A DNA stretch of 37,459 nucleotides from Verrucomicrobiota bacterium (GTDB lineage: Bacteria; Verrucomicrobiota; Verrucomicrobiia; Opitutales; Opitutaceae), in contig JAPLTN010000028.1 in assembly GCA_026398135.1 (NCBI GenBank), positions 1-37,459 on the forward strand, read 5' to 3'. Shown piece after piece: positions 4,470 through 25,829 of this stretch (its first letter is position 1; each line of letters starts with the position of its first letter). The translations under genes and the position numbers were made by a program. A model generated the notes under the pieces. That model was not told the DNA's origin. It was given only the letters and a program-made list of their open reading frames with translations, and did no database searches.

Positions 4470-4637
4470 GGGTGTGTTTGGTAAACAAACCCATCACGCG
4501 TGCATACCCACCGGAGAAACCCGCCGGGCCGGCGTTGCCCTCGGCGGCATGGACCGCTGGGCCACCTCCGCCTCGGTCGCCTTGGCCGGGCAAGTTTCTC
4601 CAGCGGCGCCTGACGCGTTTATTTACCAAACACACCC
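4470..4637. repeat. ~170-bp imperfect palindrome between divergent genes
   Basis: The outer arms, 4470-4490 and 4617-4637, are complementary at 20 of 21 positions (core GGTGTGTTTGGTAAA). Inside, complementary blocks recur in mirrored order: CGCGT (4497-4501) with ACGCG (4613-4617), and GGAGAAAC (4513-4520) with GTTTCTCC (4594-4601), then a GC-rich centre. This nested order implies one long foldable element rather than chance. It lies between the rhomboid and ferredoxin starts and ends nine bases before a TTGACA box. It could be a structured RNA, a regulatory cruciform or a small non-autonomous element. Confidence 0.6.
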
Positions 4638-5219: not shown

Positions 5220-7112
5220 GTGAAACTTAATCCCGCTTCGATTTTAACGGTTACTTGGATTGCTTTGGGCGCGTTGGCTACGGCACGCGCCGGGGCTCAG
5301 ACGGAGGCCGCACCGGTGCAATTGGAGACCTACACGGTTTTCTCCAACCGGGTGGCTTTGCAGGAGCCGGTCAGCACCTTTGCCGCACCGATTTCGGCTC
5401 TGGTTTACGAGCCGCAGGTCGATGTGCAGGCGCGCAGTTTTGCCGAGGGGCAGGCCGATGTTTCGATCCGCGGCGGCACGTTTGAGAATACGGGTTTCAC
5501 GGTCGGGGCCTTGCCGATTTACGACCCCCAGACCGGGCATTACTCGGCGGAGCTGCCGATTTCGTCCTACATGCTGGGCGCGCCCGAGGTTCGGGTGGGC
5601 GGCGAGCATGCCGCCACCGGATTTAATTCCACGGCGGGCGGGGTGGTCTATGCCTGGCGTCCGATTCACACCGGCGGGGCGGTGAGTGTGGGCATGGGGG
5701 GCGACGATCTGGCGCGCGGGGAGATTTATACCGGCTTTCTGGCCAAGGAGAAAATCGGCGGTTTCAGCGTCGGGGCCGATGCCTCGGTCGCCAGCGCCCG
5801 GGGCGATGGCACCCGCAAGTGGAAGGACACGAATGGCGTGGCCCGCGACAGCGGTTTTGATTTTCAGCGCGTCAGCGGTCGCGTGCAGGTGGCCAATGCG
5901 GTGAGTCAGACGGACATCGCCGCCGGTTATCAGGACAAGGATTTTGGCTGGCCCAATCTCTACGCCGCGCGCCCGACCACGGCCTTGCGCTACGAACGCG
6001 AGGAGCTGCAAACCAAGTTATTCGTGGTAAACAACCGCACCGAGCTCGGGGCGGATGGCGATTTCGTGCAGGGCGGCGCGTATTACCGCGGGCATCGGGA
6101 CCACTATTCCATCCCGCTGCTGGGCGCGAATTCCTACCACCAAACGCTGGTGCGAGGGGCGGCGTTTGACGGGCGTCAGACCATCGTGCCGGGCACGGCG
6201 GTGAAGTATGCCTCGGGCCTGATTTCGGACGACCTCGATTCCAACAGCCTGAACAAGGGTCACTTCATGAGCCGCACGCAGGTTTACGGTTCCTTGGCGG
6301 CGGAGCAGACGGTGGCCTTGAGCGATACCCGCGATCTGGTGATGAGCGCGGGCACGCGGTATGATGACAGCAACCGGGACAGCTCGGAGCTTTCGCCCAT
6401 TGCCTCGGTCGAACTGCGTCAGGAAAAAGCGGGGCTGCGCCGGCTCTATTTGAGCTACGACGAAAGCACCCAGCTCCCGAGCTACACGGCGTTGAACAGC
6501 GCGGCGGGCGGGCTTTTTGGCGGCAACCCGAACCTGCCCCGCGCCACGTCGCAAAATCTGGAACTGGGCGCAGAGTTGGCGGCGGCGGCCTGGACGGTTC
6601 AGTCGGCGGTTTTCTACCGGCAGGACGACAACCTGAACGATTACATCTTCGATCCGACCGGTGCGCTGGGAACCAGCCGCACGGCGGCGGCGGTGGGATT
6701 GGACACCCTCGGTTTCGAGGCATTCGTGCGTTATTCGCAGGCTCGTTTCGATCTGCTTGCGGGCTACACCTATCTGCACAAGGCGGATAACTACCAAGCT
6801 CCGCGCAACGGCAGCTTCTACGCGCTGAATTACGCCGAGCATCGCCTTACGGTGGGCGGGGTGGGCCGGCTGGGCGCGGGTTTTGAATTGCGCGTGGACA
6901 ACGAGTTTCGTCGTCAGGCGGATAACGCGCTGCGTCGCGAAGGGGCGGACAATGTCCTGAGCGCAGCGGGCCTGTTTTATCAGGTGCCTGGCGTGAAAGG
7001 GCTGACGCTCAATGCCCAGGTCGAAAACGTGTGGGATACGGCGTTTCAGGAAGTGCCGTTGGTGCCTTCCTCGGGCCTGACCTGGAGCACGGGTGCGACC
7101 TACGTCTGGTAA
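5220..7112 (+). CDS. TonB-dependent outer-membrane receptor (BtuB-sized)
   Basis: A 630-residue TonB-dependent receptor for active uptake across the outer membrane. Residues 1-26 are a signal peptide ending at ARAGA. The mature N-terminus has VQLETYTVFSNR, resembling the TonB box/plug start of verrucomicrobial receptors. A plug domain follows (about 45-160; QADVSIRGGTFENTGFTVG is a typical plug motif), then a beta-barrel rich in alternating hydrophobic residues that ends in the aromatic YVW signature of barrel proteins. The size is close to BtuB and siderophore receptors, and there is no CarboxypepD or SusC-type extension. The start codon is GTG, with no convincing Shine-Dalgarno sequence. 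The substrate is unknown; a cobamide is only suggested by size and the structured leader. Confidence 0.88.
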   Translation: MKLNPASILTVTWIALGALATARAGAQTEAAPVQLETYTVFSNRVALQEPVSTFAAPISALVYEPQVDVQARSFAEGQADVSIRGGTFENTGFTVGALPIYDPQTGHYSAELPISSYMLGAPEVRVGGEHAATGFNSTAGGVVYAWRPIHTGGAVSVGMGGDDLARGEIYTGFLAKEKIGGFSVGADASVASARGDGTRKWKDTNGVARDSGFDFQRVSGRVQVANAVSQTDIAAGYQDKDFGWPNLYAARPTTALRYEREELQTKLFVVNNRTELGADGDFVQGGAYYRGHRDHYSIPLLGANSYHQTLVRGAAFDGRQTIVPGTAVKYASGLISDDLDSNSLNKGHFMSRTQVYGSLAAEQTVALSDTRDLVMSAGTRYDDSNRDSSELSPIASVELRQEKAGLRRLYLSYDESTQLPSYTALNSAAGGLFGGNPNLPRATSQNLELGAELAAAAWTVQSAVFYRQDDNLNDYIFDPTGALGTSRTAAAVGLDTLGFEAFVRYSQARFDLLAGYTYLHKADNYQAPRNGSFYALNYAEHRLTVGGVGRLGAGFELRVDNEFRRQADNALRREGADNVLSAAGLFYQVPGVKGLTLNAQVENVWDTAFQEVPLVPSSGLTWSTGATYVW

Positions 7113-7133: not shown

Positions 7134-7192
7134 CAGGCTTCGGCGGGACGCCGAAGCCGACACCCGGGACGGGTGCGCTCCCCGGACCGACG
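7134..7192. repeat. GC-rich double-hairpin repeat, copy 1
   Basis: This 59-base unit contains two small palindromes, CTTCGGCGGGACGCCGAAG and ACCCGGGACGGGT, followed by GCGCTCCCCGGACCGACG. It matches 23578-23636 at 55 of 59 positions. In the second hairpin one C-G stem pair of this copy is a G-C pair in the other, a compensatory change. It lies between the receptor and ribE. Confidence 0.7.
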
Positions 7193-7253: not shown

Positions 7254-7850
7254 ATGTTTACCGGCATTATCGAGGAGACGGGACGAGTGGAGCGCTTCGA
7301 GCGCGGGGGCGACGCGTGGAAGTTGCGCGTCGCGGCTAATGCGGCGCTGACCGACATCGCGACGGGCGATAGCATCGCGGTGAATGGGTGCTGCCTCACG
7401 GTGGTGAAATTTGACGCGACCGGGATCGAGTTCGACCTGTTGGAGGAGACGCGGCGGCTGACCAGCATTCAGTCCATCGCAGCGGGCTCGGCGGTGAATC
7501 TGGAGCGCAGTTTGCGCTTCGGCGGGAAAATGGGCGGACATTTCGTGACCGGGCATGTGGACGGCCTTGGAACAGTCGAGGTATTCGAGGCGCGGGGCGC
7601 GGATCGTTACCTGCGGGTGAAGGCGGCGGCGGGGCAGGGGAAATATCTCATTCACAAGGGCAGCATCGCGATCGACGGGATCTCGCTGACGGTGGCCGAG
7701 GTCGAGGGCGACGCCTTCGCGGTGTGGTTGATTCCGCATACCGTGACCGCGACGAACTTGTGCGAGAAACGGGTGGGCGATCCGGTGAATCTGGAGTTTG
7801 ATCTGCTGGGCAAATACGTGGAAAAACTCACGCTCGGGCGTGCGGGCTGA
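7254..7850 (+). CDS. ribE: Riboflavin synthase, alpha subunit
   Basis: A 198-residue riboflavin synthase, which dismutates two 6,7-dimethyl-8-ribityllumazine molecules to riboflavin plus a pyrimidine. The protein shows the expected internal duplication. The first barrel starts with the hallmark MFTGIIEETG and contains SIAVNGCCLTV; the second contains MGGHFVTGHVDG followed by GSIAIDGISLTV and IPHTVTATNL. The length is typical. The ATG at 7254 is fixed by the invariant MFTGI start. No other rib gene is adjacent, so the pathway is scattered. The upstream gap carries the dispersed hairpin repeat and no obvious FMN riboswitch. Confidence 0.95.
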   Translation: MFTGIIEETGRVERFERGGDAWKLRVAANAALTDIATGDSIAVNGCCLTVVKFDATGIEFDLLEETRRLTSIQSIAAGSAVNLERSLRFGGKMGGHFVTGHVDGLGTVEVFEARGADRYLRVKAAAGQGKYLIHKGSIAIDGISLTVAEVEGDAFAVWLIPHTVTATNLCEKRVGDPVNLEFDLLGKYVEKLTLGRAG

Positions 7851-21307: not shown

Positions 21308-21338
21308 CGGCGGGCATGGCAACTAATTTTTCCCGCCG
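21308..21338. repeat. Inverted repeat after uvrA
   Basis: CGGCGGG (21308-21314) and CCCGCCG (21332-21338) form a 7-bp stem whose loop ends in TTTTT. It starts 12 bases after the uvrA stop. Because the T-run lies inside the loop it is not a standard terminator, but it may reduce read-through. The remainder of 21297-21435 is an AT-rich leader with TATATT at 21367-21372. Confidence 0.35.
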
Positions 21339-21435
21339 ACGCCTAACTTGCACTGTTGGCTATGTGTATATTGAAGAAGTAGCGTGTAACTTTATCTTGA
21401 GTTCATTAAACCTGCGCGAAGACTTTGATTCTTTT

Positions 21436-23391
21436 ATGCCTTTTAATAACCGACATTTGTTATTTTGCGTATTCTCTATTTTGGTTTTATTATCGGGATG
21501 TAGAACTGCCTCTTTTGAAGCGTATTCCTATCGCAAAGCGGCTGAACAGGGGGATTCGACTGCTCAAATGAATCTGGGTATCGCGTACTACAATGGTGAA
21601 GGAGTAGGGAAAGACCGCGTTGAAGCAGCGAAGTGGTTTCGCAAAGCAGCAGAACAAGGATTAGCTAATGCTCAGTTGAAACTTGGCTATGCCTTCGACT
21701 ATGGCGAAGGAGTCATTAAAGATCACGTCGAGGCGGTGAAGTGGTATCGCAAAGCTGCTGGAAAGGGATTAGCAAAGGCTCAATATAATTTAGGAGTTTC
21801 TTATTCGAAGGGAGAAGGCGTTGCTAAAGATGACGTAGAAGCAGCGATTTGGTTTCGGAAAGCAGCAGATAAGGGACATGCATCGGCACAAGCGAATCTT
21901 GGTTATGCATACGAAAAAGGCGAAGGCGTTGATAAAGACGCCGTCGAAGCCGTAAAGTGGTATCATAAGGCCGCCGAACAGGGTATTCCTGATGCACAAT
22001 CTAATCTTGGTTTCTGCTACTATAATGGAAACGGAGTCAGGAAAGACCTTGTTGAATCTGCGAAGTGGTATCGGAAAGCCGCCGAACAGGGATATTCTTC
22101 GGCTCAATATAACCTGGGGCTCTCTTATTCCAAAGGTGAAGGCGTTCCTAAAGATCCCGTTGAAGCTATTAAGTGGTATATGAAAGCAGCGGAACAGGGG
22201 CATTCATCGGCTCAATCAGCTCTTGGATACGCTTATTTTGAAGGCAAGGGAGTTACTAAAGATGTGGTCGAAGCAGTGAAGTGGTTGCGTAAAGCCGCCG
22301 AACAGGGCGTTGCAGTTGCTCAAACTAATCTTGGCGTTGCCTTCTATGAAGGCAAAGGAGTTAGTAAAGACCTTGTCGAAGCAATAAGGTGGTATCGCAA
22401 AGCGGCTGAACAGGAAGATTTAGGTGGTCAATTTAATTTAGGATTCGCCTACTATGAAGGGAAAGGAGTTAGTAAAGACTATGTCGAATCAGTGAGGTGG
22501 TATCGAAAAGCCGCTGAAAAGGGACATGCAGCGGCTCAGGCTAATCTTGGCTACGCTTACAAGCACGGTGAAGGAGTCATTAAAGATCACGCCGAATCAG
22601 TGAGGTGGTATCGCAAAGCGGCTGAACAGGGAGAAGCACAGGCACAAAGTAATTTGGGATCTTGTTATTTCAACGGAGAAGGAGTTACTAAAGATTACGT
22701 CGAAGCTTTGAAGTGGTATAGAAAAGCCGCTGAACAGGGCTTTGCAGCAGCTCAGGTGAAATTGGGCTACGCCTACAGTCACGGCAAAGGGCTTGATAAA
22801 GACCCTACCCAAGCCTTGCGTTGGTATCGAAAAGCGGCCGAGCAAGGAGATTCTTCAGGTCAATATAATTTGGGAGTGTACTACTACGAGGGAGAAGTCG
22901 TTTCTAAAGACCATGCCGAAGCAATAAAGTGGTACCGTAAAGCGGCTGAACAGGGACATGTTGATGGTCAATATGGTCTGGGCTTCGCTTATAACCAAGG
23001 TGCAGGAGTTATTAAAGACCCTATCGAAGCCGTAAAGTGGTATCGAAAAGCGGCTGAACAGGGACATTCAATGGCTCAATATGCCATGGGTAACGCCTAC
23101 ATATTAGACCAGGGTATCGATAAAGACTTCGTCGAAGCAATGCATTGGTATCGCAAAGCCGCTGAACAGGGAGTTGCACAGGCCCAATTTAATCTAGGCA
23201 ATGCTTACTTCCGAGGCGAAGGCGTTCCCGAAGACATTGTTGAGGCTTACGCTTGGTGGAGTGTTTTGGGTGAGCACGAAATCGCTCGTGTATATATAAA
23301 TTTAATCGAGGCCATGATGACCCAAGAACAACTAGATCAGGCTAGAAAACTGTCTCATGAACGCATGCAGAAATTTGGATCAAAGAAGTAG
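21436..23391 (+). CDS. Lipoprotein with 16 Sel1-like repeats
   Basis: A 651-residue protein. Residues 1-22 are a lipoprotein signal with lipobox LLSGC, so the mature protein should be lipid-anchored. From about residue 30 there are 16 tandem 36-residue Sel1-like repeats of the pattern WYRKAAEQGxxxAQxNLG, then YxxGEGVxKDxVEA, followed by a short non-repetitive C-terminal segment (YAWWSVLGEHEIARVY to the end). Sel1 repeats form an alpha-alpha superhelix used for protein-protein contacts, for example in envelope or signalling adaptors. The DNA is visibly AT-richer than its neighbours and repeats with a 108-base period. The ATG at 21436 gives the signal peptide; an upstream in-frame start would bury it. 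Flanking direct repeats suggest an inserted segment. The partner is unknown. Confidence 0.9.
   Translation: MPFNNRHLLFCVFSILVLLSGCRTASFEAYSYRKAAEQGDSTAQMNLGIAYYNGEGVGKDRVEAAKWFRKAAEQGLANAQLKLGYAFDYGEGVIKDHVEAVKWYRKAAGKGLAKAQYNLGVSYSKGEGVAKDDVEAAIWFRKAADKGHASAQANLGYAYEKGEGVDKDAVEAVKWYHKAAEQGIPDAQSNLGFCYYNGNGVRKDLVESAKWYRKAAEQGYSSAQYNLGLSYSKGEGVPKDPVEAIKWYMKAAEQGHSSAQSALGYAYFEGKGVTKDVVEAVKWLRKAAEQGVAVAQTNLGVAFYEGKGVSKDLVEAIRWYRKAAEQEDLGGQFNLGFAYYEGKGVSKDYVESVRWYRKAAEKGHAAAQANLGYAYKHGEGVIKDHAESVRWYRKAAEQGEAQAQSNLGSCYFNGEGVTKDYVEALKWYRKAAEQGFAAAQVKLGYAYSHGKGLDKDPTQALRWYRKAAEQGDSSGQYNLGVYYYEGEVVSKDHAEAIKWYRKAAEQGHVDGQYGLGFAYNQGAGVIKDPIEAVKWYRKAAEQGHSMAQYAMGNAYILDQGIDKDFVEAMHWYRKAAEQGVAQAQFNLGNAYFRGEGVPEDIVEAYAWWSVLGEHEIARVYINLIEAMMTQEQLDQARKLSHERMQKFGSKK
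21530..23250 (+). repeat. 108-bp coding tandem repeats (16 units)
   Basis: The DNA encoding the Sel1 units repeats every 108 bases, with recurring blocks such as AAGTGGTATCGCAAAGC and GCTGAACAGGG. Units differ mostly by substitution, with no frame breaks, so selection on the protein is evident. Such arrays can expand or contract by recombination. Confidence 0.8.
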
Positions 23392-23485: not shown

Positions 23486-23636
23486 GGTCCGGGGAGCACA
23501 CGCGTCTCGCGTGTAGCGCCGGGCGTCTCGCCCGGCGCTGGTTTGGGCGGGTGCGATACAGGGAAACACTGCTCAGACAGGCCTCGGCGGGACGCCGAAG
23601 CCGACACGCGAGACGCGTGCGCTCCCCGGACCGACG
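23486..23636. repeat. Composite GC hairpin repeat, copies 2 and 3
   Basis: A 29-base module at 23486-23514 is present inverted at 23604-23632 with 28 of 29 matches. The right-hand copy is part of the 59-base unit 23578-23636 shared with 7134-7192. Between them lies a perfect 11-bp stem, AGCGCCGGGCG and CGCCCGGCGCT (23515-23525 and 23529-23539), with a TCT loop. The whole block sits between the Sel1 gene and the end of the DUF5916 gene, and could terminate transcription from both sides. Confidence 0.7.
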
Positions 23637-23657: not shown

Positions 23658-25829
23658 TTAGAAGCGGAACGTCGCGCCCATCTTGGTGCTGATCTCGGTG
23701 CGGGTGAAATCCCAACGACCGTCGTCGATGTCGGCTCCCTGGTTAAAGACCCAGAAGATGTCGCCGCCGGGCATATAGGTCCAACGCAGGCGGGTGTTAA
23801 AACCGACCGAGTGGCTGAGATTGTCGAATTGGCCGAGCACGGACCAGACGAGCTTGGGGGAGAATTGCACCGCGCCGCCGAGCTTCATGAGGCGCACGGG
23901 GAATTCCGCGTAGGGCAGGGTGACGTCGGTGTATTCAAAGCCGGCGTCCACGTTGAACACCGGGACCGGGCGCCAGGTGAGCGAGCTCTTGTAGAGGATT
24001 TGGTCGCCGGCGTAGTAGAGGCGCTTGGCGACGCTGGCGGTGCCGGAGATGGGGCGGGATTTGGAGGTGGTCATGGCGACCTCCAGGTGTTCGCCGTAGA
24101 AGGAACCGGGGAGCACGACGACGCCGTTGGGCACGCGGAAGGAGGCGGGCAGACGCTCGTTTTCCACCTTGGTGCGCAGCAGGAGGGTGTCGCCGCGTTT
24201 GGTCTCGAAACTGACTTCTGGGCCGTAGGTTTCCTGTTCGCGGCTGTTGGTGATGAGGCTGTGGCGGTGCGAGGCGGAGAAGACCGGAACGATGCGCTTG
24301 AGCGGCTCGGGGTTGAATTCGTAGTCGAGTTTGCCGGTGAGGTTGTAGATGCCGGTTTGCTGGACGTTGCCGAGGGCGGGGTAGAAGTCTTTCCCTACGC
24401 GGTCGAGGTAACTGGTGAAGCCCCAGGTGGGGCTGTCGTAGATGGCGCCCCAGCCGAAGGCGGCGGAGTCGTCGTTGCGGTTGGTGGACTCGGTTTCCTC
24501 GAAGTAGAGGGAGCCTTGGAAAGGCGAGGCGGGCTGGTCGAAGAGGCGGCCGGTGTTGTAGTTGAGGTCGAAGCCGGCGAGCCAGGCATCGCCGTTGGTG
24601 CGGGGATCGCCAAAGGTGCCGATCACGCCGACGCCGATTTCGTCGGTGGCGCGGACGAGCACGCGGCCGACGGCGAGGTCTTTGGCTTCGAGCGTGCCCG
24701 AGGCCTCGGTGCGCACGGTGAGCAGGCCGAAGTTTACCGGGCCTTCGCGGCCGGAAATGCGCGCGCCGGCAAAGATGTCCACCACCTCGCCGCGCGGGCC
24801 GATGCCGATGCGGCGTGAGTAGTAAGGGAGTGGATTGCGGTTGATGAGGCTGTAGGCGAAGACGCCGGCGTCCTGGAGGAAGAAGGCGCGTTTTTCGGGG
24901 AAGAAGACGGGGAAGCGGGTGAGGTTGACCTGGCGTTCGTCCACCTCGGCGTCGGCGAAGTCGGTGTTGAAGGTGACGACGGTGGTGGTGGAATCGGTGA
25001 GTTTGTAGGACAGATCGAAGCCGGGTTTGAGCTGGGTGTATTCTTTGCCGGTGACGGTGTCGTTGACGTAGGTGACGGAAGTGAAGGGACGGGCCTCGTA
25101 GCGGGCGGCGCGGCGCAGGTCGGTGAGCCCGGTGAGACGGCCGGTGGCGGCGAGGTGGTTGACCTCGTATTGGCGCTGGGGGCTTTGCCAGCGGATTTTT
25201 TCGCCTTTGCGGGCGATTTGGCGTTCGAGGTTCAGGCCCCAGGCGGGGGTCTTGGAATTAAAGGAGAGGGTGGAAAGAGGGATGGAGCCCTCGGCCTGCC
25301 AGCCGTCGGGGGTGCGTTTGGCGACGACTTCCCAGAGGCCGTCCCAGTCGGTGTTGAGGGTGAGGCCGCCGCGAATGAGGGCGTCGCGCTTGGCCCCGAG
25401 GGAATTCACGGCGAAGTAGTAGCCGTTGCGCCGGTCGAGAAAGGGATCGAGCACGATGATGAAGTTGTCGTCGCCATCGAGGTCGGCGTCGCGCTTGCGC
25501 TGGGTGGCGACGATGCCCTCGGGCTTGGTGTCGTGGGCGACGATGAAGAAATACAGCCGGGTGCTGTCGTAGCCGAGGTAGAAGTCGGTTTTTTCCGAAG
25601 GCTCACCGCCGGGAACAGGTTCCACTTGTTTGAGGTTCGTGATGGCGGGCACGTCTTTCCAGGCTTCGTCGCCGAGATTGCCGTCGATGACCGGCGGGGT
25701 AGCGAGCCGGGGCGGAGACCAGCTTTGGGACGCGGTTTCAGAGCGGGCGAAGGAGGCAAAGGCGAGGCCGAGCAGGGCCGTGAGGAGAAGGGCTGAATTG
25801 CCCGGAGAGCTGTAACGGAACGAGCGCAT
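23658..25829 (-). CDS. DUF5916 outer-membrane protein with CBM9-like N-terminal domain
   Basis: A 723-residue exported protein. Residues 1-30 are a signal peptide. A CBM9-like beta-sandwich follows (about 38-225), recognisable by PPVIDGNLGDEAWKDVPAI, DFYLGYDSTRLYFFIVAHD, DDNFIIVLDPFLDRRNGYYF and LGAKRDALI. The remaining ~480 residues match the DUF5916 barrel-like region, with FPEKRAFFLQDAGVFAY and strand patterns, ending in the terminal phenylalanine (GATFRF) typical of outer-membrane barrels. Proteins of this architecture are often annotated as carbohydrate-binding family 9, but binding of sugar is not established for them. It appears monocistronic: a repeat block lies downstream and a 360-base gap upstream separates it from the binding-protein gene. 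Confidence 0.87.
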   Translation of the reverse strand: MRSFRYSSPGNSALLLTALLGLAFASFARSETASQSWSPPRLATPPVIDGNLGDEAWKDVPAITNLKQVEPVPGGEPSEKTDFYLGYDSTRLYFFIVAHDTKPEGIVATQRKRDADLDGDDNFIIVLDPFLDRRNGYYFAVNSLGAKRDALIRGGLTLNTDWDGLWEVVAKRTPDGWQAEGSIPLSTLSFNSKTPAWGLNLERQIARKGEKIRWQSPQRQYEVNHLAATGRLTGLTDLRRAARYEARPFTSVTYVNDTVTGKEYTQLKPGFDLSYKLTDSTTTVVTFNTDFADAEVDERQVNLTRFPVFFPEKRAFFLQDAGVFAYSLINRNPLPYYSRRIGIGPRGEVVDIFAGARISGREGPVNFGLLTVRTEASGTLEAKDLAVGRVLVRATDEIGVGVIGTFGDPRTNGDAWLAGFDLNYNTGRLFDQPASPFQGSLYFEETESTNRNDDSAAFGWGAIYDSPTWGFTSYLDRVGKDFYPALGNVQQTGIYNLTGKLDYEFNPEPLKRIVPVFSASHRHSLITNSREQETYGPEVSFETKRGDTLLLRTKVENERLPASFRVPNGVVVLPGSFYGEHLEVAMTTSKSRPISGTASVAKRLYYAGDQILYKSSLTWRPVPVFNVDAGFEYTDVTLPYAEFPVRLMKLGGAVQFSPKLVWSVLGQFDNLSHSVGFNTRLRWTYMPGGDIFWVFNQGADIDDGRWDFTRTEISTKMGATFRF

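Follow-up and report, generated by a model that had tools for sequence, protein, structure and literature searches.

Genomic setting and anatomy of the repeat

The window, that is, the whole stretch of 37,459 nucleotides that was analysed, holds three full copies of one 54-bp two-hairpin element, recognisable both in the sequence and with a covariance model (R1). One copy stands alone and the other two form a head-outward pair on which the neighbouring genes converge:

5220..7112, + strand: TonB-dependent receptor beta-barrel gene, upstream of copy 1 (PF00593, E 3.4e-17; stop codon 22 nt ahead of the element)
7135..7188, - strand: copy 1, single (head 7177-7188, hairpin 1 7160-7176, hairpin 2 7136-7158; R1 78.5 bits, E 1.7e-12)
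7254..7850, + strand: lumazine-binding protein of the riboflavin synthase type, downstream of copy 1 (PF00677, E 9.9e-50)
21316..23391, + strand: Sel1-repeat protein, left of the pair and converging on it (PF08238, E 2.9e-187)
23486..23539, + strand: copy 2, left half of the head-outward pair (head 23486-23497, hairpin 1 23498-23514, hairpin 2 23516-23538; R1 76.7 bits; inverted repeat I1)
23540..23578, no strand: 39-nt spacer between the inward-facing tails of copies 2 and 3, by the R1 match positions
23579..23632, - strand: copy 3, right half of the pair (head 23621-23632, hairpin 1 23604-23620, hairpin 2 23580-23602; R1 76.8 bits)
23658..25829, - strand: DUF5916 protein, right of the pair and converging on it (PF19313, E 2.4e-13)

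The element is made up of a conserved and unpaired 12-nt head (GGTCCGGGGAGC), hairpin 1 (7 bp), one base, hairpin 2 (10 bp) and a final base. Its limits were read from 42 full-length rows aligned with their flanks, in which conservation sets in at position 1 and drops after position 54. On one strand, the foot reads ...GGGGAGC and is followed by hairpin 1 and then hairpin 2, both with a TCY loop. The commonest form of hairpin 1 is GC-NNN-CG-TCY-CG-N'N'N'-GC (exactly that in 21 of the 44 host copies), and hairpin 2 has a variable stem beneath a nearly fixed GGCG-TCY-CGCC tip. The consensus of the foot, GGAG followed by C, differs from the GTAG or GTGG, 0-2 nt from the stem, by which REPs are defined. 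Nevertheless, the foot and hairpin 1 behave as a REP, to which hairpin 2 would be an addition; judging from the common CG-TCY-CG tip, it is perhaps a second REP hairpin minus its foot.

The repeat had been noticed through two 59-base units (7134-7192 and 23578-23636), which are indeed identical at 55 of 59 positions and differ by a compensatory change, hairpin 1 reading ACCCG/CGGGT in one unit and ACGCG/CGCGT in the other. The two remaining differences are one loop base and one base in the stem of hairpin 2; the latter turns a T-A pair into a T-G wobble on the element's own (-) strand, which appears as a C/A mismatch on the + strand. The third copy, at 23486, is inverted as the original prediction had it, yet it is more than the 29-base module described there: it extends to 23539 and has its own second hairpin, of other letters and fully paired (GCGCCGGGCG/CGCCCGGCGC).

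Two other features of the window were recorded. The Sel1-repeat gene (21316-23391) contains sixteen 108-nt repeat units and has a GC3 of 0.39, the GC3 being at least 0.73 in 13 of the 14 other window genes measured; this low-GC3 gene was possibly acquired. A 31-nt inverted repeat lies at 4470-4500 and 4607-4637, its arms being 87% complementary and 106 nt apart.

Copy number and distribution

The single-strand DNA folding z-scores of the three window stretches (-3.3, -1.7 and -5.9 against 200 shuffles) make one of them weak by folding alone. The family is taken as real because R1 matches 44 copies in the host genome, that of a verrucomicrobial bacterium of the Opitutaceae type, and because the exact head occurs there 28 times and the reversed head not once. 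The search with R1, which was built on 33 copies chosen by head match rather than on all 44 and was run with E up to 0.1 in the 3.39-Mb host genome and up to 0.01 across 38 genomes, thus bore out the expectation that the repeat would not be confined to the window. A 54-bp unit in 44 copies agrees with the definition of REPs as short palindromic repeats in many dispersed copies. Among the matches listed, R1 copies at E up to 0.01 are present in 17 of the 38 genomes (host included). All of these are from the host's own family, f1 (17 of its 25 genomes), and the 13 genomes outside it have none. The richest relatives, again among the matches listed, are G012 (50 copies), G016 (18), G015 (14) and G001 (13). 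In ten genomes searched for the exact head, it was also found in G003 (9 times) and G007 (6 times) and in none of the seven others; the reversed head is likewise absent from G003 and G007 and occurs at most twice in any other searched genome. The constant part of the head is down to about GGGGAGC in G015 and G016, which belong to other genera.

The host copies are intergenic, mostly near gene 3' ends, either single or in head-outward pairs, as is typical of extragenic REPs. None of 31 host sites, which cover 43 of the 44 R1 matches (C74 was left out), falls inside a gene called by a simple home-made codon-usage gene caller. Thirteen of these sites were classed as convergent, 13 as co-directional, one as divergent and four had no called neighbour on one side; window copy 1 (C91a) is counted among the 13 convergent sites, although the whole-window run puts the riboflavin synthase gene on the + strand and hence makes the site co-directional. 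Divergent sites are rare: there is one among the 27 that have a called gene on both sides (P 0.004 against an expectation of one quarter). Pairs of alternating orientation, another REP trait, were found in the window and in C106, C78 (two), C65, C20, C14, C59, C105, C73, C45 and C40.

Close relatives differ in the presence of the element. The G003 locus syntenic with the first window site has neither hairpin and still contains CTCCCGGACCG; as to the second site, G003 is without the pair, and G007 is without the hairpins but retains GTGCTCCCCGGACCG. A head-like remnant is thus kept at two of the three empty sites. The head was considered as a pre-existing insertion target and rejected as such, the exact head being missing from seven of the ten genomes searched; for this reason, it is preferable to regard sites that have the head alone as what is left after a loss of the hairpins. 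Truncated copies also exist, consisting of the head and hairpin 1 only (C74, C103) or of the head and half of hairpin 1 (G003:C147). Moreover, in eight host pairs the internal layout is the same and the outer arms are alike (on one side about CGTTCAAG...TTTAAC), so that a composite pair must itself have multiplied.

These distributions bear on the possibility that the repeat is a transcribed RNA hairpin (an mRNA 3'-end stabiliser, a terminator or a regulatory RNA) under selection for RNA structure, roles of a kind that the text of PMC3733652 hypothesises for REPs in general. The proximity to gene 3' ends and the strong covariation described below would be in line with it. Yet the copies occur in both orientations and in pairs, close relatives differ in their presence or absence, the head is conserved though unpaired, and the window has no Rfam match at the gathering score. 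The role of terminator is rejected, since neither window locus has a terminator-like site; over the 44 copies, the 10 nt after the element contain a mean of 2.55 T, and at least 5 T in only 5. A selected RNA hairpin therefore appears improbable.

Covariation and evolution of the stems

Covariation among intergenic copies had been proposed as the mark of a REP-like family, and it is strong both in the copies used to train R1 and in others. In the 33 training copies, 94.1% of the stem cells are paired and 14 of the 17 pairs changed on both sides, with a covariation score of 0.527 vs 0.183 when shuffled and at most 0.124 when slid. The values are similar for 57 distinct non-host copies (95.8% paired, 13 of 17 pairs changed on both sides, 0.523 vs 0.168 shuffled and at most 0.130 slid), which are outside the training set but aligned to R1 and hence biased towards the model; one weak match, L366 (G003:C128), was left out of the counts. 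The changed pairs are mainly the five outermost ones in hairpin 1 and the six lowest ones in hairpin 2; at the tips there is almost no variation. Double transversions, such as C-G to G-C, make up 64 of the 122 changed-yet-paired cells and mismatches 33 of 561 cells, figures that count sequences rather than events.

Several processes may keep stems paired while their letters change. One possibility is that one arm is copied onto the other by template switching in quasipalindromes, with no need for folding to be favoured. The double transversions, which are impossible via a wobble pair, and the proportion of mismatched cells would be explained in this way, and a paired change was found in two of seven comparisons of copies at shared sites (C33/G003:C47, which shares the left flank only, and C106/G001:C2), comparisons that used a subset of the relatives' copies. 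Nevertheless, the other stem changes at shared sites are mostly one-sided or unpaired, and the cell counts do not represent independent events. The composite pair points the same way: in the seven copies in which the pairing of hairpin 2 was followed (the layout was taken from eight, and C40 was left out here), this hairpin is fully paired in 7/7 first halves and has one or two unpaired positions in 4/7 second halves, and the C105 copy resembles a mosaic of two stem alleles. Arm copying is an alternative to which a minor chance is given. We rather propose that the covariation arises because folding is selected at each round of movement; the stems would then drift in letters yet stay paired because mainly foldable copies get passed on.

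Y1 genes of the host

Five Y1 genes were detected in the host with Pfam. The RAYTs of C89 and C65 were rejected as partners of the 54-bp family since the repeats around each of them are not of that family but a GTAG-footed set of its own. They make two more REPtrons in the host (L004, G000:C89, and L003, G000:C65), in which the GTAG-footed hairpins on either side of the RAYT read GTAG-CG-TTGGCCG-TCYC-CGGCCAA and GTAG-GGTCGTCG...CGACGACC, respectively. The Y1 gene of C42 (L005, G000:C42) has TIR-like repeats: a 62-nt repeat containing TTGTATCCATGTAAC lies at 1445-1506 and 2251-2312, with an inverted copy at 1368-1407, and the start of the frame is apparently damaged.

A multicopy 333-aa Y1 transposase (C114 type) called for closer attention, as the 54-bp repeat could be the end of its own mobile unit. 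The gene is full length in C114 and further pieces lie at the ends of other contigs; repeats are found just 3' of it in C114 (4 nt away, degenerate, 18.4 bits), C95 (115 nt), C26 (about 120 nt) and G003 (about 160 nt), each with the head distal. However, C94 and C82 also hold the 3' end of such a gene and have no R1 match, and the left end of this Y1 element is a GGGACAG motif without the repeat (among the 32 of 80 loci listed). Of 80 loci of this type from named genomes, a single one, that of G003, has an R1 repeat, a further match at E 2.4 being noise. Among the matches listed, the gene and the repeat are also dissociated between genomes: G020 has ten matches to the gene and no repeat, and the gene is missing from G015 and G016, which have 14 and 18 repeats, respectively. 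The C114-type enzyme, suggested as the cognate transposase by the repeats downstream of it in the host, was thus rejected on the 80 loci, and the corresponding reading is largely refuted and very improbable. Its host copies (G000:C114, C94, C95, C82, C26, C27, C64 and C88) terminate at contig ends; in the three that hold the left side (C27, C64, C88), short tandem repeats that differ between copies precede GGGACAGGTTAAATATG, as if they were derived from the target.

RAYTs of related genomes

The original prediction had also pointed to a RAYT (Y1 transposase) gene as the partner to look for. This held in part: in relatives, repeats that share the foot lie on both sides of RAYTs, in one locus also sharing the hairpin framework, but the host has no RAYT of their clade. 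The case that matters here is the RAYT at G016:C1:450268-450588 (81.7 bits vs the NF047646 cut-off of 80), around which repeats of the form GGGAGC + GCGGGCG-TCC-CGCCCGC occur at three places (R1 26-30 bits). Two of these places have head-outward doublets, which lie on opposite sides of the conserved domain; the flanking is measured from this domain because the open frame itself (480-2675 of L358) extends across the repeats. Within 3 kb at this RAYT there are four copies of the strict module GGGAGC + GC-NNN-CG-TCY-CG-N'N'N'-GC, which has none in 27 other RAYT loci (thus 1 of 28) and none in 413,823 bases of 79 C114-type Y1 loci. RAYTs in G012:C43 and G015:C30 are flanked by GGGAGC-footed hairpins and that of G006:C102 by GGGAAC-footed ones, with other stems and loops. 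At no RAYT examined did the complete 54-bp form occupy both flanks.

These four RAYTs belong to one clade of 11 (support 98/98), which also includes RAYTs with GTGG or GTAG-C feet; the GGGAGC set itself is weakly supported as a clade (73/14). The foot labels on this tree were assigned by eye, five of the 28 rows being in no group and the GGGAGC group including G006:C102 (GGGAAC). A profile of the clade scores over 200 bits in G004, G006, G012, G015 and G016, by construction since it was built from their five proteins, and in the host it reaches 46.9 bits at most, with C89, a RAYT of another branch. G004 is R1-positive, and its RAYT above 200 bits goes with a GTAG-C foot. The host yielded no RAYT from the GGGAGC clade, nor did G001, G003 and G007, three R1-positive relatives that are 83-92% complete. 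Among the matches listed, at least five R1 copies are present in 5/5 genomes with a RAYT over 200 bits vs 5/20 others of the family (Fisher P 0.005, with thresholds chosen post hoc); if any R1 match is counted instead, the difference is not significant (5/5 vs 12/20, P 0.14).

Known systems and proposed mobilisation

The closest known systems are the REP/BIMEs of the GTAG superfamily, which the text of PMC3733652 presents together with a CGTC superfamily. It reports GTAG families in Opitutus terrae (GTAG-17, -19 and -20), from the same phylum as the host, with many intragenic repeats in that species, and the foot variants GYAG, GYRG, GTRG and GTMG, as well as GTGG in O. terrae GTAG-20. The 54-bp family shares with this superfamily short palindromes with an unpaired foot beside the hairpin, inverted pairs and intergenic positions near gene 3' ends. 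It differs in its GGAG foot, in the adjacent second hairpin of the conserved unit, in the 12-nt conserved head within the host genus and in the lack of a cognate RAYT clade in the host. The CGTC-tagged repeats (PMC3733652) likewise include REP-like families that have no dedicated transposase beside them in the genome, and their hairpins also contain CGTC. In those repeats, however, the stems measure 8-9 bp and the loops 4-5 nt, and CGTC is a tag at the terminus, whereas here it spans the stem and the loop tip. MITE-like derivatives of IS200/IS605 and TIR-flanked Y1 elements are also non-autonomous DNA moved by HUH/Y1 enzymes, but the left end of the host's multicopy Y1 element is GGGACAG, and no repeat consistently accompanies this element. 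Finally, the RAYTs of relatives resemble the REPtrons of the TnpAREP subclasses (PMC6006769) in being flanked by the same foot and framework (G016:C1), the same foot (G012:C43, G015:C30) or GGGAAC (G006:C102), although the published rule needs GTAG/GTGG 0-2 nt from the stem and the full two-hairpin form flanks no examined RAYT on both sides.

In its text, PMC6006769 classifies the TnpAY1 proteins, searches REPs by GTAG or GTGG and gives class 3 a CnGA foot; according to that of PMC8266576, GTAG is essential in E. coli and changes are tolerated in other systems. GGAG as the start of a word does not occur in the main text of PMC3733652, PMC6006769, PMC8266576 and PMC2817692, and a term search of the last gave no mention of Opitutus, Verrucomicrobia or GGAG. 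As far as these four papers and literature searches go, the GGAG foot is unreported; GGAG-footed families would be missed by the published search because it requires GTAG/GTGG.

The 44 covarying copies, the absence of the 31 host sites from genes and the same-footed repeats flanking RAYTs of relatives all support the RAYT-linked, REP-type nature initially suggested for the repeat. It is probably a family of 54-bp non-autonomous mobile DNA elements, REP/BIME-like and moved by a RAYT-type transposase. When single-stranded, for instance on the lagging-strand template, the hairpins would fold; a RAYT-type HUH (Y1) transposase would recognise the foot and hairpin 1 and move or copy the element to intergenic sites, singly or as a head-outward pair, and mainly foldable copies would be passed on. 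We infer that the RAYT acting on the window's family is of the GGGAGC kind, and the strand and chemistry likewise. Since the host has no RAYT of the GGGAGC clade, its family looks orphaned; probably it is either so or moved by a RAYT of another branch. A more specific version, to which we give a rather slim chance, is that of a GGAG two-hairpin REP class in which hairpin 2 would be a second recognition structure, the stems would be renewed by arm copying, and the family would persist after the loss of its cognate RAYT, either cross-mobilised by other-footed RAYTs or through slow RAYT-free movement.

The 54-bp family would extend the REP/RAYT world past the GTAG/GTGG foot. Since a single bacterial family holds REPtrons with GTAG, GTGG, GTAG-C, GGGAGC and GGGAAC feet, it offers a natural series for the way in which RAYTs read the foot. 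In several genomes the repeat is seemingly orphaned, and close relatives offer both shared and empty sites; this also bears on the movement of REPs without a resident RAYT.

A RAYT of G016:C18 has a 61.8-bit R1 copy touching one side, the other side being the contig end; it was set aside as proof for this second reason and because it branches outside the GGGAGC clade. This copy sits within a long open frame: in L151 (G016:C18:53500-55637) it adjoins the 3' end of the RAYT and the same frame continues beyond it, in what we take to read like an alanyl-tRNA synthetase. The contig ends just past L151 in low-complexity sequence. A RAYT-REP may have inserted here within alaS or beside it.
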